A stretch of DNA of 64,000 bases from Caulobacter sp. (GTDB lineage: Bacteria; Pseudomonadota; Alphaproteobacteria; Caulobacterales; Caulobacteraceae). A model generated the notes under the pieces. It saw only the letters and a program-made list of their open reading frames with translations. It ran no database searches and was not told the DNA's origin. Both the position numbers and the translations under genes were made by a program. Below, one piece after another: positions 1-30,045 of this stretch. The stretch's first letter is position 1, and the number at the start of each line of letters is the position of its first letter. The stretch lies in the NCBI GenBank assembly GCA_026225565.1, contig JAMFTA010000110.1, positions 1 through 64,000 of the forward strand, given 5' to 3'.

Positions 1-554
1 CTGCGCACCCCTTCGAACGGATTGCCGCCCGCCTGGATCTGCCCTTTGAGATTGCCGGCCTTGCCGGAAATGCCGCACAGCTTCTCGAACCGGTCATAAT
101 GCGCCTCGAGCTGGTCATAGGTGACGCCCCAATCGGCGACCAGCATGTCCGCGGGAATGGCATTCTTGCCGTAGCGCCGGGTCAGATGGCTCAGGAGTTC
201 ATGGTCGCTCGGCAGGAAACGATAGGTCTGGCCATTCCAATGCGTGCCCATGCCGCCGACGCCGTCGCCCGGCAGGAAGGCGCCGAAGCGGCGAATCGGC
301 AGCGCCTCGCCGGCGGGATCATGGCGAAAGCTGACGGTCTCCAGCGACGGATCCTGCATCAGCTCCTGGCGCACGGCATAGCGCAGCTCGTCGCGGATGC
401 CGGGCAGGGTGAAATCCTCGGCCGGGGATCGCATCCCCCCTCGCTCCAGTCCCACCACCTGCAGGCCGGCGCGCGTCAGCTCCCGCGCGATGATCGTCCC
501 ACTCCAGCCCATGCCGACGACCACGGCGTCCACCGGCTTCAACTTGATCGTCAT
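1..554 (-). CDS. GMC-type / gluconate dehydrogenase flavoprotein subunit (partial, C-terminus outside window)
   Basis: The first 184 residues are in the window, read leftward from an ATG at 554. The N-terminus has an FAD-binding Rossmann motif (VVVGMGWSGT, residues 11-20), followed about residue 98 by the Gly-rich GVGGMGTHWNG stretch typical of the large subunit of membrane-linked gluconate/sorbitol/alcohol dehydrogenases of the GMC family. These oxidise a sugar or sugar acid in the periplasm and pass electrons to a cytochrome c subunit. It lies 10 bases after the gluconate dehydrogenase subunit 3 gene, which supports the assignment and indicates one operon. The substrate cannot be told; a cytochrome subunit would be expected just outside the window. 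Confidence 0.85.
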   Translation of the reverse strand, partial: MTIKLKPVDAVVVGMGWSGTIIARELTRAGLQVVGLERGGMRSPAEDFTLPGIRDELRYAVRQELMQDPSLETVSFRHDPAGEALPIRRFGAFLPGDGVGGMGTHWNGQTYRFLPSDHELLSHLTRRYGKNAIPADMLVADWGVTYDQLEAHYDRFEKLCGISGKAGNLKGQIQAGGNPFEGVR

Positions 555-564
555 CGCGGCGCGC

Positions 565-1257
565 TCAGGAAAAATCGGCGATGGACTGGGGCGGCGCCTC
601 GTAGCGTCGTCCCCGGTACGCCGCGATGGCCTCGGCATAGGTCGCCGGCAACCCCGGGTAGCCGACCATCTTCCATCCTGCCTTGTCCCGGTTGCCTCCA
701 TAGATTGGGTCGGCGAAAAAGCCCTCCTGCGCGATCGCCAAGAGGGCGTCGAAGAAGCCCTTGCTGGAGAGGTCGGGAAACGCCGCTTCGCCCGACTCCA
801 GCGCCTTCAGGACGGCGATCTGGTCGGCTTCGGCCAGGCGGTCGAACGTCGCGCCATGGCGGGCCGTGGCGAAGGCGTTAGATGCAGCGATGCCGGCGGC
901 GAAATAGTCCCGCGGAGTCAAAGGCAGCTGATAGCCGTGCTCGGGTTTGCCCTTGAGAAACGGTCCGCTGCGATAGAGCCGCGCGCCAGAGCCCCAGGCG
1001 CCGGCCAGTTGGCGGTCGATGAATACGGCGACGCCGCAAGCGCTGCCGGAGGGCGAGAGACGGTCGGCCGGGATCAACCGGTCGACCGCCGCCTCGATGA
1101 AGGCCATCTCCGTGGCATTCAGCGTCAGCGCCGGCTCCGGGGCGGCCGGGGCGGCCGGGGCCGCGGGCGCCGCCTCCGCTTCGCTATTGGCGACGACCGC
1201 CGACAAGCCGGCGGCGCCCGTGAGCAGCCTTCGTCGATCCAAATTGGTCTTGGTCAT
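565..1257 (-). CDS. Gluconate 2-dehydrogenase subunit 3 family protein
   Basis: This 230-aa protein starts with a Tat-type leader: three arginines at residues 8-10 (DRRRLL), then a hydrophobic stretch and an Ala/Pro-rich spacer to about residue 45. The mature part matches the small subunit of membrane-bound gluconate 2-dehydrogenases (FIEAAVDRLIPAD early, then GFFDALLAIAQEGFFADPIYGGN). The small subunit is needed for export and folding of the flavoprotein, which carries no leader of its own and is encoded directly downstream. Upstream lies a TonB-dependent receptor on the same strand, suggesting that outer-membrane uptake and periplasmic oxidation of one substrate are encoded together. Confidence 0.85.
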   Translation of the reverse strand: MTKTNLDRRRLLTGAAGLSAVVANSEAEAAPAAPAAPAAPEPALTLNATEMAFIEAAVDRLIPADRLSPSGSACGVAVFIDRQLAGAWGSGARLYRSGPFLKGKPEHGYQLPLTPRDYFAAGIAASNAFATARHGATFDRLAEADQIAVLKALESGEAAFPDLSSKGFFDALLAIAQEGFFADPIYGGNRDKAGWKMVGYPGLPATYAEAIAAYRGRRYEAPPQSIADFS

Positions 1258-1292
1258 GGGCTCTCCTCGATCAGCTTTCGCTGGCTCAATGC

Positions 1293-3848
1293 TCAGAAGT
1301 CGAAAGAAATCTTCCCGTAGTAGAAGCCGCCATCGATGGAGAAGGGCGCCGGGCCGTAGATCGATGGCGAGGCGCCGGTCCCGGCGCTGGGAATGCCATG
1401 CTTGTCTGGATAGACGCTAAATAGATTCGCCGCGCCGATGCTGAGCTTCACATGCCGGTTCACCGCATAGTCCACGCTGGCGTCGGTAATCCATTTCGCG
1501 CCGAAATTCCGGTCCTGAGAGGCGAGCTGGCTGATCACATAGGTGTAGCCGCCGTACCGGGTCAACTGACCGTTCAAGGTGATCGGGCCGCGCGTCCACG
1601 AGCCGCTGAAGATCAGCTTGTCGTGGGGCTGGGTGGTCGTCAGGTCCGCCTGCACCGTGCGGCTGAAGAAGACCGTGCTGCCGCCGGTGTTGGTCGGCGT
1701 CAGGGCCGCCAACTGGGCGGGCGTGGCCGCGACCTTGAGCACGGCGGTGGTGTTGTAATTGTAGGCGACGCTGAAATTGGCCCGTCCCCAGCCCGGCGGA
1801 AGCGGACGGGAGGTGTCCAGGACGATGTCGACGCCCCGCGAGCGGGTGTCCGCCATGTTGGCGAAATAGGTCACCCATTCCGCGCCGCTATAGCCGTTGG
1901 CGATCAGCACCTTGCCCACCGCAGGGCCCAGGAAGGTGCCGGTGCGCTCGATGCGGTCGCGCACCGTCACCTCATATCCATCGACGGTGATATTGACCCG
2001 CTCCAGCGGCCGCAGGACGAAGCCCAAGCCGTAGTTGTATGACTTCTCGGGCTTCAGCGGCTCGGCCCCCAGGGCCTTTCCGAGCGCCGAGGTGGTGGGG
2101 ACGAGGAGGGTAAGCGCCGGGCCGAAGGCGCCAGTGACCGGATTGGTGCTGGTGCGGCTGTCGGTCTGGGCATAGCCGATCTGGGTCAGGGAGGGCGCGC
2201 GAAAGCCCGAACCCACCGTGCCGCGCAGGGCGAACCAGGAATTGAAGTCATAGCGCGAGTTGAACTTGCCGCCGACGGTGGAGCCGGAGCTGTCGTCATA
2301 GTGCTCGACTCGGGCGGCCGCGCCAACGTACCACGCCTTCAAGGGGTAGACGTCGACGTCGGCATAGCCCGCGACGCTGGTGCGCGTCAGGTCCACCTGA
2401 TCGGAGGGCCTAAGGATCACGCCGCCCTGGGCGCCAATGGCGGAGGGCAGGCCGAGGTTGGGATTTCCCGACTGATCGCCAGCCTTATAGATATAGCCGC
2501 CATTCTCCCAGCCGAGGGTTTCGCCGGCGAAGGTGTGGAAATTGTCGACCCGCACCTCCGCGCCGCCCGAGACGGTGACCGGTTCGGGCACAATGGTCTT
2601 GAAATCGCGGGTGAGGTCGAGATTGGTCACCCACTGGTCAAACTGGTAGGTCGCCAGATCGTCGAAACTGGTCGGCCCGGTTGGGCCCAGCGAAGGATTG
2701 ATGGTGGAATCGCTGTATTGGCGGACGTGATTTCGGCCATAGGCGGTGCTGAGATCCCACTTCAGCGCGTTGACCTCGCCCTTGGCCCCGAACAGCACCT
2801 GGAAGTCGTATTCCGAGGTGTTGTTCAGCGGATAGTAGCCCGCGGAAAACAGAGAATCGAAGCTGGCGTTGCTGTCTGGACGCCGATAGTTGTTGCCGAT
2901 CACCGTCTGTCGTTCGCCAAAGGTGGAATAAGAGTAGAGACGGGTGGTGTCGTTGATCGGTAGTTCGGCATTGTAGAAAAAGCTGTACTCGACGATGCCC
3001 GGATCGCCGTTGTGGGCGCCGTCGCCCTTCCAGAGCGCGTTGCGCGGATCGCTGGCCGGCGCATAGGGCAGTTGGGTGGCGAAGAAGTTGTTCCAGGTCT
3101 GGCCGCGACGCTCGGTATTGGCGCCGAAGTGGAAGAAGCCGCCCTGACCCAGAGGGACGCCCGCATCCACCTCGCCCTTGTAGGTCGAAAGATCGTTCTT
3201 GCCCTCGTAGAGCGCGCCGCCCAACCCGCTGAAATGTATGCCGTGGTCTTGGGATTTGAGCACGATATTGATCACGCCCGCGACGGCGTCGGACCCGTAC
3301 TGGGCCGCCGCGCTGTCCTTCAACACCTCCACATAGGCGATGGCGCTGGACGGAATCATGTCGAGATCGACGGGGTTCACCCCGCTGGTGTCGCCGCCGC
3401 CATTGGTCAAAAGCGAACTGTTGTGGCGGCGCTTCCCGTCGATCATGACGAGGGTGTAGGCCGGGCCCATCCCCCGGTTGTTGATCGGCCGCACGATCGA
3501 ATTGATCCCAGCTTCCGTCTGGCCGAAATTGAGCGACGGCAGCAGTTTAGAAAGCGATTCCGCCAGGTCCGCCCGACCGGTGGCGGCGATCTGATTGGCT
3601 TGGATGATGTCGATCGGCGCCGGGCTCTGGGCGACGGTGCGCGGCCTGCCGCCCCGGACCCCGGTAACAATGACCGTGTCTCCGCTTGCGGCCTCAGCGG
3701 CTGCATCGGCTGTGGTCACAGACGGCGGCGCTTCAGCGGCCTGGGCCGGCGCTCGCCAGGCCCCAACACCGGCAATGGCGCTCGTGGCCAGTAGTAAAAC
3801 GCGGACAGCTCGCCGCCTATATTCGATGTTTGATTTTGAACCGCCCAT
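1293..3848 (-). CDS. TonB-dependent outer-membrane receptor
   Basis: An 851-aa protein with a signal peptide (hydrophobic core about 17-30, cleavage near AQA/AEA at 36-40), a TonB-box-like DTVIVTG at 57-63, a plug domain up to about residue 200 (ending AGVINIVLK) and a long beta-barrel with aromatic-ended strands. It finishes in GKISFDF, the C-terminal Phe expected of outer-membrane barrels. No STN domain is present, so this one probably only transports. It is followed by the two dehydrogenase subunits with a 35-base gap, so the ligand may be the sugar or sugar acid they oxidise. The start has a purine-rich GGGGGCGAT just before the ATG. Confidence 0.9.
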   Translation of the reverse strand: MGGSKSNIEYRRRAVRVLLLATSAIAGVGAWRAPAQAAEAPPSVTTADAAAEAASGDTVIVTGVRGGRPRTVAQSPAPIDIIQANQIAATGRADLAESLSKLLPSLNFGQTEAGINSIVRPINNRGMGPAYTLVMIDGKRRHNSSLLTNGGGDTSGVNPVDLDMIPSSAIAYVEVLKDSAAAQYGSDAVAGVINIVLKSQDHGIHFSGLGGALYEGKNDLSTYKGEVDAGVPLGQGGFFHFGANTERRGQTWNNFFATQLPYAPASDPRNALWKGDGAHNGDPGIVEYSFFYNAELPINDTTRLYSYSTFGERQTVIGNNYRRPDSNASFDSLFSAGYYPLNNTSEYDFQVLFGAKGEVNALKWDLSTAYGRNHVRQYSDSTINPSLGPTGPTSFDDLATYQFDQWVTNLDLTRDFKTIVPEPVTVSGGAEVRVDNFHTFAGETLGWENGGYIYKAGDQSGNPNLGLPSAIGAQGGVILRPSDQVDLTRTSVAGYADVDVYPLKAWYVGAAARVEHYDDSSGSTVGGKFNSRYDFNSWFALRGTVGSGFRAPSLTQIGYAQTDSRTSTNPVTGAFGPALTLLVPTTSALGKALGAEPLKPEKSYNYGLGFVLRPLERVNITVDGYEVTVRDRIERTGTFLGPAVGKVLIANGYSGAEWVTYFANMADTRSRGVDIVLDTSRPLPPGWGRANFSVAYNYNTTAVLKVAATPAQLAALTPTNTGGSTVFFSRTVQADLTTTQPHDKLIFSGSWTRGPITLNGQLTRYGGYTYVISQLASQDRNFGAKWITDASVDYAVNRHVKLSIGAANLFSVYPDKHGIPSAGTGASPSIYGPAPFSIDGGFYYGKISFDF

Positions 3849-18202: not shown

Positions 18203-18299
18203 GGAGTGGGCGCCTTCGCAGGGACCCGGCTGCAGGGAGCGCAGCGACTGAAGCTGGGCGGAAGGCGATCCGAAGCGCGCCGAGGGCGGAGCCCTACGC
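18203..18299 (+). repeat. Dispersed repeat, copy A
   Basis: A GC-rich stretch of about 97 bases beginning GAGTGGGCG and containing GGGCGGAAGGCGATCCG. A second, diverged copy in the same orientation is at 22638-22731. The copies bracket the block from the MBL gene to the serine hydrolase gene. It carries no gene; the 306-base gap it lies in (18135-18440) also holds the promoter region of the MBL gene. Confidence 0.6.
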
Positions 18300-18440: not shown

Positions 18441-19346
18441 ATGAAGATTGAAATTCACGATGTCGATCATGGAGCCTGCGTAGTCGTCACAGGGCCGCGG
18501 GGGCATCGGCTCATGCTTGATTGCGGCCAGAGCGGCACGCGAGAATGGTGGCCCTCCATTCATTACTACGGCGAGACCATCCATACGCTCCTACTGATGA
18601 ACCTCGACGAGGACCATGTTGAGGATCTCGAAAACCTTTGGAGAACGACGGTTATCAAAGCCATCGGGAGCAATCCGACAATTTCTGCGGCGGCTTTGAA
18701 GTTCATGAAGCCGAGCGGTATGCGTCGCGGTGTCACTGCCGCCCACAACATCCTCACTTCGCTTGGGCCGGGATTTCACGGCCAATGGAGTGATGACCTC
18801 GGCGGAGTGCGTTGGCAGGCGTTCTGGAACCGATATGCTGTAGATTTCACAGAGACCAACGACCTAAGCCTAGCGGTATTTGTGTCATATGGCGGCTTCA
18901 CCGCGCTGTTTGGCGGCGACCTTGAAACAGCTGGCTGGCGTAGGCTGCTTCAAAATCCAGGTTTCCGGGCGCGTCTGCCTGAAGTGAAATTATTTGTAGC
19001 GTCGCACCATGGCCGGGAAAGCGGGAAATGCGATGAGCTGTTCACTTATTGCTCGCCCGATCTGATCGTCTTTTCTGATGGACCGAAGGAATTCGAGACG
19101 CAGGAAACGACGCAATGGTACGCCCGCCGCGCCAATGGGATTCCTGATTATTCCCGGCCCCCGACAATCCTGGGCGATCAACCGCGTCGCCGGGTGATGA
19201 CCACGCGCAGCGATGGCACGATCTGTATAGACGTTGCTGACACTGGGAAGTGGCTCGTGACGCCTTCACCACGGCCAAATCAACTTTACAACGCTCTACA
19301 AGCGCTGGGGCTTTCACAGCCGATGACGAGGCCGCTGCTTGGCTGA
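18441..19346 (+). CDS. ComEC-like metallo-beta-lactamase fold protein
   Basis: A 301-aa protein. Metal-site motifs of the ComEC/Rec2 branch can be traced: N54-L-D-E-D58-H59 in place of the usual HxHxDH, GGD at 158-160, SHHG at 188-191 and a C-terminal RSDGTICIDV that matches the ComEC TDRDGxxxV ending. The first His of the motif is replaced by Asn, as in part of this branch. It has no membrane segment, unlike ComEC, so it is a stand-alone hydrolase, possibly a nuclease or phosphodiesterase (inference). The start at 18441 follows GGGGAACGGGG. It overlaps the next gene by 8 bases, giving a tight operon. Confidence 0.75.
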   Translation: MKIEIHDVDHGACVVVTGPRGHRLMLDCGQSGTREWWPSIHYYGETIHTLLLMNLDEDHVEDLENLWRTTVIKAIGSNPTISAAALKFMKPSGMRRGVTAAHNILTSLGPGFHGQWSDDLGGVRWQAFWNRYAVDFTETNDLSLAVFVSYGGFTALFGGDLETAGWRRLLQNPGFRARLPEVKLFVASHHGRESGKCDELFTYCSPDLIVFSDGPKEFETQETTQWYARRANGIPDYSRPPTILGDQPRRRVMTTRSDGTICIDVADTGKWLVTPSPRPNQLYNALQALGLSQPMTRPLLG

Positions 19347-19995
19347 TAAGTTCCAGGAAGCCGTCAGGTCATTTGATGCCTACGAGGTCATTGGGGTTGT
19401 CACGCCCGGAGTGGTTGTCGCGCTGATGCTGGCGATAGAATGGCCCCCATTCAAATCCTTGATGGGACCGCAAGGCCTGAGTATCGGTGACTTTGGCCTC
19501 TTCATCCTTGTAGCCTTCGTCCTCGGTCATTTAATCCAAGCTGCGGGCAACATTGTCGAGCTCTTCGTTTGGCTTCCCTTCGGCTTACCGACGAACTGGG
19601 TGCGGCTCCCCGGCCAATCGCTTGTAACCGCCGCCCAAAGAAAGGCGTTGGAAACGATGGTATCTGAAATGGAGGGAGAGGTGATTGATCTCTCAGGTGT
19701 CAGCCGCACCCATTGGCGAGCGATCACTGCTCGTGCCTATGGACGCCTTAAATCCAGCGGCCGGTCTGGCAGAGCGGACATCTCCAATCGCACCTATGGC
19801 CTATGCCGTGGCCTGTCGGCGGCGGTGCTCATCTGCTTCGGCTGGTCTCTTTATGAGCATCCCAGAGCATGGACGGAGATTGGACTCATCGGACTGGCAG
19901 CTGCTGCCGCACTTTGGCGCATGCGCCGCGCTGGCGTTCACTACGCCAGAGCCCTTGTGTTAGATTTTATCGATTTGTCGAACGGCGCATCATAG
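19339..19995 (+). CDS. Membrane protein encoded with the MBL-fold protein
   Basis: A 218-aa protein starting at a TTG that overlaps the end of the MBL gene. Four hydrophobic segments are visible: about 22-37 (VTPGVVVALMLAIEW), 48-76 (FGLFILVAFVLGHLIQAAGNIVELFVW region), 157-170 and 180-193. A soluble loop of roughly 80 residues lies between the second and third segments. I do not recognise a family. A membrane anchor coupled to a nuclease-like enzyme is a common layout in phage-defence modules, but no specific known system matches. Confidence 0.65.
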   Translation: MADKFQEAVRSFDAYEVIGVVTPGVVVALMLAIEWPPFKSLMGPQGLSIGDFGLFILVAFVLGHLIQAAGNIVELFVWLPFGLPTNWVRLPGQSLVTAAQRKALETMVSEMEGEVIDLSGVSRTHWRAITARAYGRLKSSGRSGRADISNRTYGLCRGLSAAVLICFGWSLYEHPRAWTEIGLIGLAAAAALWRMRRAGVHYARALVLDFIDLSNGAS

Positions 19996-20012
19996 CGCCC
20001 GGCATTCAATGA

Positions 20013-20678
20013 ATGGCTCGCCTAGCCCGCTCAACAAAATCCGGTGAACTTGGAGCCAACGTGATTGACGAGGTCGCAAGAGACAGAGCGCTAAATCGGT
20101 ACGGAATTCCACTGTGCCTGCACGTGCCGATCGCGGCTGTCGATGAGGAAGCAATCACCACCTATGTCGGAGATATTGTTCGGCCGCTGACGCAAGGGCA
20201 GACCCGGCGAGCGTTCCTGGTGGAGACGCGCGAACAGCCCGCGATTGATCCATGCTACCCAATTTCCGATAAGCCCAGCTCCGTGATATTCCATACGCGG
20301 CAACAGGTCTGGGTCCACCACGCCTACAACAGCTATCGGTCGGCGTATCGGCGGGCATTCCCGGGCACCGACATTTCTGGTCTGGTGCTGAGCCATGCGA
20401 TGAATAGGCGCGTGGCGGCCCTCAAAGGGTTTAACTTTATCCGGCTTACGCCGACCTTGCGCCGCGCGAATTCCAGCAGTGCGTTCTCCGAGAATTGGGG
20501 TGTCGCGCTTCACAGCGACACCCACCAAATGGCCGCAAACAAACGTAATGGCGCCTTCATCCAGTACGCCGACCTCACCGAACTCATGCTCATGATGGAC
20601 ATGCCCCTAGGAGGTGGAGTCATGGCCGCAGTGAATGAGGGGCAAAGGCTCATCCGACCGCGGGCCAACGAAGGCTAG
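20013..20678 (+). CDS. Orphan protein, third gene of the MBL module
   Basis: A 221-aa soluble protein 17 bases after the membrane gene on the same strand. The middle carries HHAYNSYRSAYRRAFPGTD and LSHAMNRRVAALKGFNFIRL, a His/Asn/Arg-rich segment that could hold an active site, then a conserved-looking RANSSSAFSENWGV. No family is recognised. A GTG at 20060 with GGAG before it is an alternative start. Its position in the operon suggests it works with the MBL and membrane proteins. Confidence 0.6.
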   Translation: MARLARSTKSGELGANVIDEVARDRALNRYGIPLCLHVPIAAVDEEAITTYVGDIVRPLTQGQTRRAFLVETREQPAIDPCYPISDKPSSVIFHTRQQVWVHHAYNSYRSAYRRAFPGTDISGLVLSHAMNRRVAALKGFNFIRLTPTLRRANSSSAFSENWGVALHSDTHQMAANKRNGAFIQYADLTELMLMMDMPLGGGVMAAVNEGQRLIRPRANEG

Positions 20679-21187: not shown

Positions 21188-22498
21188 TCATTTGAGCGCC
21201 TTAGCTCCATCGATCATGACGTCAATCACCTTGTCATTGCTGTGATGACCAACATGGGCGGTGAGCGGATCAGCGGCGATGTGGAGGAAGTCAAAGCCGT
21301 TGCGATCCATAATGTTCGTGACCTTCACCTTATCAATCCCTGGCACCAGGAAGGTGAGCGCATCGGTCGGATCGCTGAACGCGATAATCTGCTTTGGGTT
21401 GGGACGTGCCGAAAGGGGATACGTGCCCGACAACCCTGGCATCGAATGCTCCGCTGAATCCTGACCTTCAGCCCACGCCGAAAGAGCATCAAGGGGTGAC
21501 TGGCCGACGCCAGTGACGGGTGGGTTCACGAGACCGTGGCTCGGCACATAGCCGTTATCTTGTCCGAGACGACCAAGTTCCAAAAGCGCGAATTGGTTGG
21601 CGAACAAATAGATGTAAGCCGTCCGCTGGAGTAGGTCATGTGTGGCTCCGCCGGTGTGCCATGCATCGAGGGTGATAAAGCTTCCGAGGCTTTCGGCGAT
21701 CAAGACGTATTCATCATCGGCAGCACCACCTGTCCTACTGTCGGTCGCCGCGTATTCGAATGCTTTATCGATAGTCGCTCGGAAATAGGTCTGCATCGGA
21801 CCGAGGGCGATAACAGCGTCGGACAGGCCCCAATTCATGAGGCCACGTTTGACCGCGCCGTTGGCCCAGGCCGCGCCGCCAATAGGTCGCTTGGCTTTCA
21901 AAGCGTCGTTGATTTCCTTCTCGTTTAGCCATGACTGGTAGGGCGCGCCAAGCTTGGTCGTTCCGTCATCTGCCAAGCCCGCACATAGATAAAGATGGTG
22001 GGTGTCGAGTCCGCCCAGGCGAGCTTCGGGGGCAACGAGTGCCCGGCATTTGAGGGGAACGGCCAGTGGCCACCAATTCACCTCGTCGACGATGAGAAGC
22101 GGATGGCCGCCCACGTTGTAGGTATAGCGGTTCACGAAGGGCGCACCCGTCGCCCACGTTTCATCGGTCCAGATGGGATCAGTCATAAACTTGAAATCGG
22201 GTTTGGGGCTGATCGCAAGGCGATGATTGCGCTCGACAACCGGCTCGCCCGCCGCCTTCAGCTCGGGCATTTTGGCACGCAGCTTCTTTTGAAATATCTC
22301 CGACAGGCCAGCACTGTCGGAGGCGATGCCATGCACGTAGACGATGTGGACGGGTTTGCCGTGGGCACCCGCGAGTATCTCGCGGAACGACTTCGTATCT
22401 TTGAGCGCCTCCGGGCCAACTTCGGCCATCGGCGCAGCGAACGCTGCGCCGAGACCGACCACGGAGAATAGGCCCGCCAACATTTCCCGCAACGCCAT
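21188..22498 (-). CDS. Exported alpha/beta-hydrolase (serine esterase-like)
   Basis: A 436-aa protein with a Sec signal peptide (MALREMLAGLFSVVGLGAAFAAP, split here from the rest) and a strong AGGGGGAA ribosome-binding site before the ATG at 22498. The hydrolase features are the strand-turn YVHGIAS near residue 50, an elbow AESLGS holding the likely nucleophile Ser near residue 275, a late SDPTDALTF with a candidate acid Asp and a C-terminal GHHSN with the likely catalytic His. Substrate unknown; esterase or lipase activity is plausible. It is convergent with the small repeat protein gene and lies just inside repeat copy B. Confidence 0.7.
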   Translation of the reverse strand: MALREMLAGLFSVVGLGAAFAAPMAEVGPEALKDTKSFREILAGAHGKPVHIVYVHGIASDSAGLSEIFQKKLRAKMPELKAAGEPVVERNHRLAISPKPDFKFMTDPIWTDETWATGAPFVNRYTYNVGGHPLLIVDEVNWWPLAVPLKCRALVAPEARLGGLDTHHLYLCAGLADDGTTKLGAPYQSWLNEKEINDALKAKRPIGGAAWANGAVKRGLMNWGLSDAVIALGPMQTYFRATIDKAFEYAATDSRTGGAADDEYVLIAESLGSFITLDAWHTGGATHDLLQRTAYIYLFANQFALLELGRLGQDNGYVPSHGLVNPPVTGVGQSPLDALSAWAEGQDSAEHSMPGLSGTYPLSARPNPKQIIAFSDPTDALTFLVPGIDKVKVTNIMDRNGFDFLHIAADPLTAHVGHHSNDKVIDVMIDGAKALK

Positions 22499-22637
22499 CG
22501 TTTCCCCCTTTGCGTGTACGCCGGGGGTCAATAAGACGCTACAATCAAAGATTGTCCATGGGCCTCTGGCACGCGTTGTAACTCTGGTTAGTTCTCAAGC
22601 ACCAACTCTGCTTTGGGTGAACCGTGGGCGGGCAGTA

Positions 22638-22731
22638 GAGTGGGCGTCTTTGTGGATACCGGCTGCCAGGGCATTGGCGGCTGAAGCCGGGCGGAAGGCG
22701 ATCCGCCGCGCCCCGAGGGCTGAGCTCTTCC
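22638..22731 (+). repeat. Dispersed repeat, copy B
   Basis: This copy starts GAGTGGGCG and carries GGGCGGAAGGCGATCCG in common with copy A at 18203-18299, in the same orientation. Identity by eye is roughly three quarters with one or two small gaps. It lies 140 bases upstream of the serine hydrolase gene. The rest of the gap 22499-23008 has no convincing gene apart from the terminator-like hairpin below. Confidence 0.6.
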
Positions 22732-25390: not shown

Positions 25391-26479
25391 TTGCCCTCGC
25401 CAAATCAACTAAAACGGGAATCCCTTTCTGCACACGTTGCGCAGCAATGTATAAGTGCACCTTACGTACTTTCTTCGCTTTTCGCGCAGGGTGATCTCGG
25501 CATTTCAGGGGAGGACTGTCTGGCCATCTACCATTTGAGACTTAAACTTGTCTCTCGCGGGACGACGCGTAGTTCGGTGGTGGCCGCTGCCGCCTACCGT
25601 TCCGGCGAACGTCTCTACGACACTACACAGGACAGGTTCTGGGACTACAAAAAGCCGGATGTTGTCCACACCGAAATTCTGGCGCCTGCGGGAGGGCCGG
25701 AGTGGGTGTACAGCCGCGAGGCCCTATGGAACCGGGTCGAGAGCGCGGAGAAACGACGCGACGCGCAGTTGGCGCGGGAGATCGAACTGACCCTGCCTCG
25801 CGAGCTTAGTCGGCAGGCCCAGATCGATTTGGTACGTGCGTATGTCCGTGACACCTTTGTCGCCAAGGGCATGGTGGCCGACATTGGCATTCATGTGCCC
25901 GACGCCGCCGATGGCGGTGAGCAGCCACACGCACATTGCCTCCTTTCTCTCCGTGAACTGGACGCCACCACGCCAGCGGGTTTCGCCGCCACCAAGAACC
26001 GCGATTGGAATGAGCCCCCCGACATCGCCCGCGCGGCGGCGGAGGCGCGTAAGCGCTTCAACGACACCGGCCTTGAGGTGGATCGCGAGGCGCTGGAAGC
26101 GATAGAGGCCCAGCGCAATGTCAATGTCTGGCGGGCGGCCTGGGAGGTCTACGCCAACCGGGCGCTGGCGGACGCCGGATCGACGGCGCGCATCGATCAC
26201 CGGACTTTGGAGAAGCAGGGGATCTTCCGTGCGCCGCTGCCCTATCTTGGCGTCGCCCGGCATATCGAGGCGGCTTACGACTATCTCAAGGAGCGTGTGA
26301 CCCAATGGGTAGCCGTCAAAAAGCGCGCCGCCCTTTATGCCGACGTGGAGCATTACCAGCGGCGCGACCCGGTCAAGCTGGCGGAGTTCGTGCTGCGCCT
26401 GGCTGACATGGCGGAAGGGTTCGCCGCATCGTTCCGCAAATCGCCACCGACGATTCCGGAGGTGCCGCTTGAGCGATGA
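25391..26479 (+). CDS. MobA/MobL-type relaxase (TraA N-terminal-like)
   Basis: A relaxase domain protein of 362 aa that would nick the transfer origin and stay bound to the DNA 5' end. It has the family's start LAIYHLRLKLVSRG at residues 44-57, the AAAAYRSGE motif at 65-73, and the metal-binding His cluster IHVP (167-170) and PHAHCLL (179-185). Homologues begin near residue 44, so the real start may be a CTG at 25520 behind GGGGAGGA; the TTG at 25391 is the open-frame start. There is no fused helicase, unlike full-length TraA. It overlaps the next gene by 11 bases. Confidence 0.8.
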   Translation: MPSPNQLKRESLSAHVAQQCISAPYVLSSLFAQGDLGISGEDCLAIYHLRLKLVSRGTTRSSVVAAAAYRSGERLYDTTQDRFWDYKKPDVVHTEILAPAGGPEWVYSREALWNRVESAEKRRDAQLAREIELTLPRELSRQAQIDLVRAYVRDTFVAKGMVADIGIHVPDAADGGEQPHAHCLLSLRELDATTPAGFAATKNRDWNEPPDIARAAAEARKRFNDTGLEVDREALEAIEAQRNVNVWRAAWEVYANRALADAGSTARIDHRTLEKQGIFRAPLPYLGVARHIEAAYDYLKERVTQWVAVKKRAALYADVEHYQRRDPVKLAEFVLRLADMAEGFAASFRKSPPTIPEVPLER

Positions 26480-28333: not shown

Positions 28334-28476
28334 CTCGCTCCGATCCCTGATCGCTTCATCGAAAAAATATGCCCGCAAAGAGAATAAGCTAAAGAATAGA
28401 CTCCCATAGGTTGAGTTTGCTCGCGGCTGCGCGCAGTACTGCTACGCTTGCCTCCTCGGGCAGCGCGGGGGCGCGC

Positions 28477-30045
28477 ATGAACTATGTCAGCCATCTCGAT
28501 ACGCCGCTCTTGCGGTTGTCGGCACAGGACCGCTTCGACCTGCGCGCGGCCACGCAAGGCGTGCATATTTTCGGCGGGATCGGCAGCGGTAAGACGACCG
28601 GCAGCGGCGCGGCCCTAGCCGCCGCCTATCTACGCGCCGGGATGGGCGGGCTGGTCCTCACCGCCAAGCCGGATGAGGTGGAGCGCTGGCTGGATTACGC
28701 CAAGGCCCATGGCCGCGCCAACTCCGTCATCCTGTTTGGTGAGCGCGGCGGCGGGTTCAATTTTCTTGATTATGAGCTGGCGCGCCAAGGCGAAGATGGC
28801 GTGGGAAGCGTCATCGAATGTTTGATGCGGGTGCTGGAAGCGGCGCGCAACGCCAGCACCAATTCCCGACCCGGCGAATCCTTCTGGGAAGACACCACAC
28901 GCCAGTTGCTGCGCAACACCATTCCGGTGCTGCACGCGGCGACGGGGACGGTGCGTATCCCGGATATCATCCGCTATGTCGGCGCAGCGCCGACGACCCA
29001 AGCGCAACTGCGCGAGCCGGATTGGCAATCGCGGTCGTTCCTGTTCCAAAGCCTCGTGGCGGCGCGCACCCATCCGCTGCGCCCCATCAGCCAAGCGGAC
29101 CTGACCAAGACCGCCGCCTATTGGCATGACGAGTACAGCCAGCTCGATCCCAAGACGCGCGGCAACATCGCCATCTCACTCTCCACCGCGCTCGACCGCT
29201 TCAATCGCGGGCGGCTGCACCGCGCTTTCGCGGATACCACAAGCCTTGTGCCGGAGCTGACGTTTCACGGGGCCTTGGTGATTATGGATATGCCCGCGTT
29301 GAGCTGGAACGATGATGGAATCATTGGCCAACAGCTCTTCAAATATATGTGGCAGCGCGCCGTGCTGGCGCGCAACGGCCTGGCGCAGAAGCACCGCGAC
29401 CGGCCGGTGTTCTTATGGGCCGACGAGGCGCAGTATTTTCAGAACAGCTACGATGCGGATTATCAATCCACCTGCCGCTCGGCGCGCGCCTGCACCGTCT
29501 ATCTGACCCAATCGCTGCCAAGCTATTACGCGCGAATGGGCGGCGAAAATGCGAAGGCGCGCGCCGACATGCTGCTCGCCAATTTCGTGACCAAGGTGTT
29601 CCACAACAACGCCGATCCCGAGACCAACCGCTGGGCGGCCGACACCATCGGCCGCTCGCTCCAGCGCCGCGCCAATTACAGCGAGGGGCGAAGCTCCGGC
29701 GTCTCGCTGGGTATGAACTCGGGCGAGAGCAGCAATTGGGGTTCCAACTCCGGCTACGGCTCCTCGGTCGATGGACAAGGCCGCCACACCTACAGCTCCA
29801 ATTCAGGCAGCAGCTCCGGCTCCGGCGCGAACTACGGCCGCAATCTCGGGCGCAACAACGGCGAATCCTTAAGTGCCGGATTTAGCGAAACGATGGACTA
29901 CGAAATCGAGCCCGCCACGTTCAGCCGCCATCTTCGCACCGGCGGCCCGGCCAATGGCGGGGCGGTCACCGGCGTCTGGTTTTCTGCGGGGAAAACCTTC
30001 GCCGGCAGCGGACGCAACTATTTGCACGCGACGTTTAAGCAATGA
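28477..30045 (+). CDS. Type IV coupling protein (TraD/TraG/VirD4-like ATPase)
   Basis: A 522-aa ATPase that would bring the relaxase-DNA complex to a secretion channel. The Walker A GGIGSGKT is at 33-40, Walker B VFLWADEAQ near 311-319, and the RecA-like core TVYLTQSLPSYYARMG follows. No N-terminal transmembrane pair is present, so it is a soluble-type coupling protein; membrane proteins coded just downstream may anchor it. Residues about 405-468 are a Ser/Gly/Asn-rich repeat tract unusual for the family. The ATG at 28477 was preferred to a TTG at 28411. It overlaps the next gene by 4 bases. Confidence 0.8.
   Translation: MNYVSHLDTPLLRLSAQDRFDLRAATQGVHIFGGIGSGKTTGSGAALAAAYLRAGMGGLVLTAKPDEVERWLDYAKAHGRANSVILFGERGGGFNFLDYELARQGEDGVGSVIECLMRVLEAARNASTNSRPGESFWEDTTRQLLRNTIPVLHAATGTVRIPDIIRYVGAAPTTQAQLREPDWQSRSFLFQSLVAARTHPLRPISQADLTKTAAYWHDEYSQLDPKTRGNIAISLSTALDRFNRGRLHRAFADTTSLVPELTFHGALVIMDMPALSWNDDGIIGQQLFKYMWQRAVLARNGLAQKHRDRPVFLWADEAQYFQNSYDADYQSTCRSARACTVYLTQSLPSYYARMGGENAKARADMLLANFVTKVFHNNADPETNRWAADTIGRSLQRRANYSEGRSSGVSLGMNSGESSNWGSNSGYGSSVDGQGRHTYSSNSGSSSGSGANYGRNLGRNNGESLSAGFSETMDYEIEPATFSRHLRTGGPANGGAVTGVWFSAGKTFAGSGRNYLHATFKQ

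Follow-up and report, generated by a model that had tools for sequence, protein, structure and literature searches.

We asked what three adjacent rightward genes in Caulobacter sp. encode, and whether their products work together. The window (the whole stretch of DNA that was analyzed) is 64,000 nucleotides long. An initial annotation of this DNA described the genes as a three-gene module that lies among mobile-element cargo, resembles no known defense system, and could specify a membrane-tethered, metal-dependent effector.

Three genes of foreign composition

The three genes and their products are:

18441-19346 (+), metallo-beta-lactamase (MBL) gene, 301 amino acids, ATG start; open reading frame call with profile matches described below
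19339-19995 (+), membrane protein gene (product P0002), 218 amino acids, TTG start; predicted Csx27-family four-TM protein
20013-20678 (+), third gene, 221 amino acids, ATG start; His/Arg-rich orphan

The coordinates bear out the described arrangement of genes that overlap or lie 17 bases apart. The membrane protein gene overlaps the stop of the MBL gene by 8 nt, and the third gene is 17 nt downstream of the membrane protein gene. Because the TTG start is inside the end of the MBL gene, translation of the two genes is likely coupled. The protein features that had been described were also present. The MBL protein has N54-L-D-E-D-H59, GGD (158-160), SHHG (188-191) and RSDG (256-259) and has no membrane part, and the third product contains both HHAYNSYRSAYRR and SHAMNRRVAALKG.

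GC content by codon position was coding-like in all three frames, and for the MBL gene and the third gene the annotated frame also scored best by codon usage. These reading frames are not due to chance: the MBL and membrane proteins are members of conserved families, and the support for the third gene is its composition. The GC content at third codon positions was 0.61-0.68 in the three genes, compared to ~0.8-0.9 in the flanking chromosomal genes. The three genes therefore differ in composition from the chromosome on either side and were probably imported.

The MBL protein resembles ComEC and has an altered ligand position

Although a Pfam search with the MBL protein found nothing, the PADLOC profile PDC-M48B (PDLC04674) matched almost the entire protein (E 1.9e-57; residues 1-265, profile positions 1-258 of 270). 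The NCBIfam profile ComEC_Rec2 matched with an E-value of 3.6e-4, below the curated cut-off, over profile positions 445-633, which are the C-terminal MBL part. There were also weak profile matches to LmuA and Avs1a. In the PDB, solved ComEC structures (9ic4 and 9vc6) were the only sensible relatives.

The MBL domain of ComEC is a two-Mn DNase. The ligands in its HxDxDH motif are H598, D600, D602 and H603, the H598A mutant is virtually inactive as a nuclease, and the serine of its HHGS motif is a putative DNA contact (PMC12455585). In the window MBL, D56, D58, H59, D160 and H189/H190 match metal and substrate residues of this domain. Unlike ComEC/Rec2, it is a separate protein without a competence channel, OB fold, or TM segments. 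In addition, Asn54 occupies the place of the first ligand His of HxDxDH, and the family has HHGR where ComEC has HHGS. In 26 aligned copies of the MBL, D56, E57, D58, H59, N140, S143, D160, E162, H189, H190, G191, R192, S212, D213, R250 and R256 were all invariant.

Every homologue in the clade of the window MBL has Asn at the first-ligand position. Eight Asn-bearing copies (L003, L016, L028 and L031-L035; L numbers denote the loci that we collected) came from unbiased searches, whereas Asn was part of one of the two patterns used in the genome-contig scans, which biases the Asn count among the loci from those scans. His was kept at this position in the outgroups L036 (Bacteroidota), L037 (halobacterial) and L040 (Methylocystis). 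A change of the first ComEC ligand His to Asn without exception in one clade, as these alignments indicate, goes beyond earlier work known to us. The protein retains the fold and most of the ligands, but given Asn54 and the Arg of HHGR, catalysis cannot be assumed, and the ability to cleave DNA may have changed or disappeared. With Asn54 in place, we consider the chances that the protein cuts DNA to be even. The fixed His-to-Asn change asks whether the Asn-clade MBLs are nucleases at all.

The MBL-trypsin pairs of Hachiman, AVAST, Lamassu and DRT have a ComEC-like MBL fold in common with the window protein, and the MBLs of Hachiman and related systems are activated DNases (PMC12799240). The window MBL differs from these in its HHGR signature, in the Asn in place of the first His, and in having a membrane partner rather than a protease partner. 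There was no trypsin-like protease fusion beside it, and profile searches gave no match to a protease family.

The membrane protein is Csx27-like

RNA-targeting CRISPR systems include Csx27 as an accessory membrane protein. Searches with library profiles (Pfam, PADLOC and NCBIfam, including Csx27 and PDC-M48A) gave no direct match to P0002. P0002 is closest to the membrane proteins that accompany the nearest MBLs, those of L011 (60% identical), L012 (55%) and L032 (54%), and the L012 partner matched the PADLOC Csx27 profile with an E-value of 4.9e-5 (residues 10-184 of 213). Further partners matched this profile too: those of L014 (7.4e-6), L036 (Adhaeribacter; 7.1e-7), L017 (5e-4) and L037 (Halobacterium; 1e-3). 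When compared by hhalign, the P0002 group and two other Csx27-like groups gave probabilities of 89% and 92%, and the P0002 group and PDC-M48A gave 0.5%. As decoys, the reversed P0002 group gave at most 1.4%, and the YER group gave 21% against its own reverse. Based on the match of the 55%-identical sibling and the profile-profile comparison, P0002 is predicted to belong to the Csx27 family.

Residues Y15, G24, G63, R157 and R194 are kept in an 11-row alignment of membrane proteins from Bacteria and Archaea. An AlphaFold2 model of P0002 was all helix (mean pLDDT 80.8) with four long helices (14-34, 49-78, 144-173 and 178-216), in agreement with the approximately four membrane segments first described. 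A Foldseek search of the PDB with this model found no fold relative (best E 0.47).

The view that the locus matches no known defense system therefore does not hold. The MBL is PDC-M48B, from a PADLOC phage defense candidate, and its partner is a predicted member of the Csx27 family, an association that was already predicted. The A protein of PDC-M48 is, like the window neighbor of the MBL, a small multi-TM protein, but the window protein is Csx27-like and not a match to PDC-M48A. Makarova, Gao, Zhang and Koonin (2019, FEMS Microbiol Lett 366:fnz088) are said to have tied the Csx27 family to ComEC-like MBL and ubiquitin-like genes. As in those associations, a ComEC-like MBL in the window is next to a four-TM protein, here one that is predicted to be of the Csx27 family. 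It differs in being minimal, with no ubiquitin-like, WYL or CRISPR gene, in having NxDEDH instead of HxDxDH, and in the additional orphan gene. Judging from sequence, the window very probably contains a minimal pair of this predicted kind, a ComEC-like MBL with a Csx27-like protein. With the words that we tried, we found no mention of PDC-M48 or of the MBL/TM pair in the literature, and no functional test of the MBL/TM family. As a minimal two-gene operon, the pair should be easily cloned and tested.

The pair is conserved without the third gene

We compared 30 distinct MBL loci, including the window. Loci with MBL homologues span Pseudomonadota, Acidobacteriota, Bacteroidota and Halobacteria. 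By inspection, ~28 of the 30 have a gene for a small four-TM protein beside or very near the MBL gene. This count includes L024, for which the assignment is weak, the divergent L016, and L019 and L037, in each of which one gene intervenes. We saw no TM partner in the remaining loci, L026 and L034. A strict automatic test, applied to 27 loci, called for an adjacent gene on the same strand encoding 150-290 amino acids with at least two hydrophobic segments; 16 of 27 MBL genes passed, compared to 8 of the 166 remaining genes in these loci (Fisher p 6e-11). Close homologues were present in only three other genomes among 299 in the order, which is probably the GTDB Caulobacterales. The nearest MBL/TM pairs are in L011 (MBL identity 73-74%), L012 and L032.

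In contrast, the third product was absent from every collected MBL locus other than the window. Downstream of the pairs in L011, L012 and L032 there was other sequence and no third gene. The proposed three-gene module thus loses its third member. The annotation had named an MBL gene found mostly without the other two as evidence against it; the membrane partner is nearly always there, but the third gene never is. No relative of the third product was found in genome scans of the order (299), class (385) and phylum (398; ~1,080 in all, with some genomes shared), or among plasmids, phages, viral contigs and PDB sequences, and a motif pattern scan found nothing. The third gene is most likely an unrelated passenger, and could be an orphan passenger or a strain-specific add-on; that it belongs to the module is very improbable.

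Several weak candidates for the third product were set aside. A match in G638 (E 8.8e-4) was rejected because it overlies other reading frames, matches to Pfam RepB_primase (E 0.091) and Avs3a (E 0.06-0.16) were taken as noise, and a single-sequence fold was uninformative (pLDDT 31).

Related MBLs have divergent membrane partners

Using a maximum-likelihood tree of 30 MBLs, and partner classes assigned from sequence motifs and profile comparisons with shallow alignments, we counted at least 17 changes of partner class with fine classes and 12 with the Csx27-like classes merged. For example, the MBLs of L031 and L032 are 74% identical and their partners 22%. Similarly, the values are 56% and 20% for L016 and L028 (Hyphomonas), and 63% and 24.5% for L018 and L023. 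The partner class of L003, L005/L028, L013, L019 and L035 had no detectable kinship with Csx27 by hhalign. The MBL appears to have swapped membrane partners repeatedly, which goes beyond earlier work known to us. Repeated exchange on one MBL lineage suggests a division into sensor and effector.

A family of four-TM proteins of 222-238 amino acids takes the place of Csx27 as the MBL partner in some loci. Its members share a 'QN..WYR' type region and have no library match:

L003, 2352-3068 (-)
L005, 836-1504
L013, 7315-8010
L019, 6357-7025
L035, 5858-6550

The module is on a mobilizable island

The following features lie around the module:

18226-18295 (+), one copy of an imperfect 70-nt direct repeat, upstream of the module; the other is at 22659-22728 (79%)
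21188-22531 (-), gene for a 447-amino acid protein
25391-26479, MobA/MobL relaxase
28411-30045, TraG/TraD-like coupling protein

The relaxase and the coupling protein are in the same island as the module and support the setting among mobile-element cargo. The island genes that we tested had no match to a defense family. The 70-nt repeats enclose a 4.4-kb segment that contains the module and the gene for the 447-amino acid protein, and could represent either cassette ends or a dispersed repeat. The genome has a third copy of the repeat on contig C54. The 447-amino acid protein has an alpha/beta-hydrolase-like start ('VYVHGIASDS') and no match in Pfam or PADLOC.

There was no Cas13b-size open reading frame in the 17.6-28 kb region of the window, so the neighbor expected of a Type VI-B system is missing, and a repeat search of 17-27.5 kb detected no CRISPR array beside the module. 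The operon in the window has no E2, E1 or JAB gene. Seven relatives have E2-E1 or E2-E1-JAB fusions (L017, L026, L027, L030, L031, L033 and L035; that of L033 is E2-E1), and L027, L030 and L033 have WYL regulators. Type I restriction-modification genes adjoin L025 and L031, an Mrr endonuclease gene adjoins L040, and TIR and DUF499 genes adjoin L019. This is reportedly the same kind of company that Makarova et al. described in 2019 for Csx27-family proteins.

Possible functions of the pair

Our best reading agrees with the predictions for Csx27-ComEC associations (Makarova 2019). We somewhat favor the view that the locus is a two-gene candidate defense module on a mobilizable island, together with an unrelated third gene; that the pair works against foreign DNA, its predicted role, has slightly better than even chances. 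We infer a physical complex, DNA as the substrate, and a role in defense. The membrane protein would assemble into an inner-membrane complex to which the MBL protein docks. This complex would detect incoming foreign DNA or form its entry point, and the MBL protein would then cleave phosphodiester bonds of the DNA close to the membrane and so limit the entry of phages or plasmids. The earlier notion of a membrane-tethered, metal-dependent effector is thus plausible, with a ComEC-type MBL and a four-TM partner, but its metal motif is not intact, as the first His is Asn.

A tentative alternative is a general immune device of modular design. One conserved MBL with an altered, Asn-containing metal site would be paired with four-TM proteins that can replace one another and that fall into at least three sequence classes. 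What is sensed, or how the cell is affected, would depend on the membrane protein, and the chemistry of the MBL would be something other than ComEC-type DNA cutting.

It is also possible, but unlikely, that the pair is an accessory for DNA uptake or processing, the separate halves of a ComEC-like machine: the Csx27-like protein would be a channel for ssDNA and the MBL would degrade the non-transferred strand. This is said to follow the spirit of the 2019 prediction by Makarova et al. The ComEC-like motifs of the MBL and the four-TM partner fit such a role. So does the account in PMC7642515, in which Csx27 is reported in operons with transformation genes and is predicted by Makarova et al. (2019) to be an ssDNA channel. 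However, the module is mobile and as rare as the genome counts above indicate, we noticed no pilus or competence gene beside it, and the host genome already encodes a ComEC-family protein on a different contig. Furthermore, the nuclease ligand His of ComEC is Asn in the MBL, and several neighbors in the relatives are defense genes.

Less probable is a membrane protein that kills the cell, with the MBL as its regulator or sensor, in abortive infection. By analogy, subtype VI-B CRISPR systems have a second accessory membrane protein, Csx28, which forms a pore that depolarizes the membrane (PMC12669027). The exchange of partners between closely related MBLs is as expected of swappable effectors, and the active site of the MBL is altered. 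On the other hand, the strict conservation of the MBL residues besides the first His favors catalysis. Lastly, the strand, 17-nt gap and coding-like composition of the third gene would fit a third protein that is the true effector of a lineage-specific three-part system, but this is highly unlikely, as the protein has no counterpart in L011, L012, L032 or any other locus, and searches of genomes, plasmids, phages and viral contigs found no relative.

Additional genes in related loci

Directly downstream of the MBL gene in L003, the gene at 523-1347 (-) encodes a DUF2971-like protein (Pfam E 0.0017, below the cut-off). Several relatives have a second, distinct MBL gene in the operon with or next to the PDC-M48B-like MBL gene, often with an E2-E1-JAB fusion:

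L018, 2250-3098
L019, 7022-7978
L022, 7140-7982
L030, 4555-5733
L031, 3644-4792
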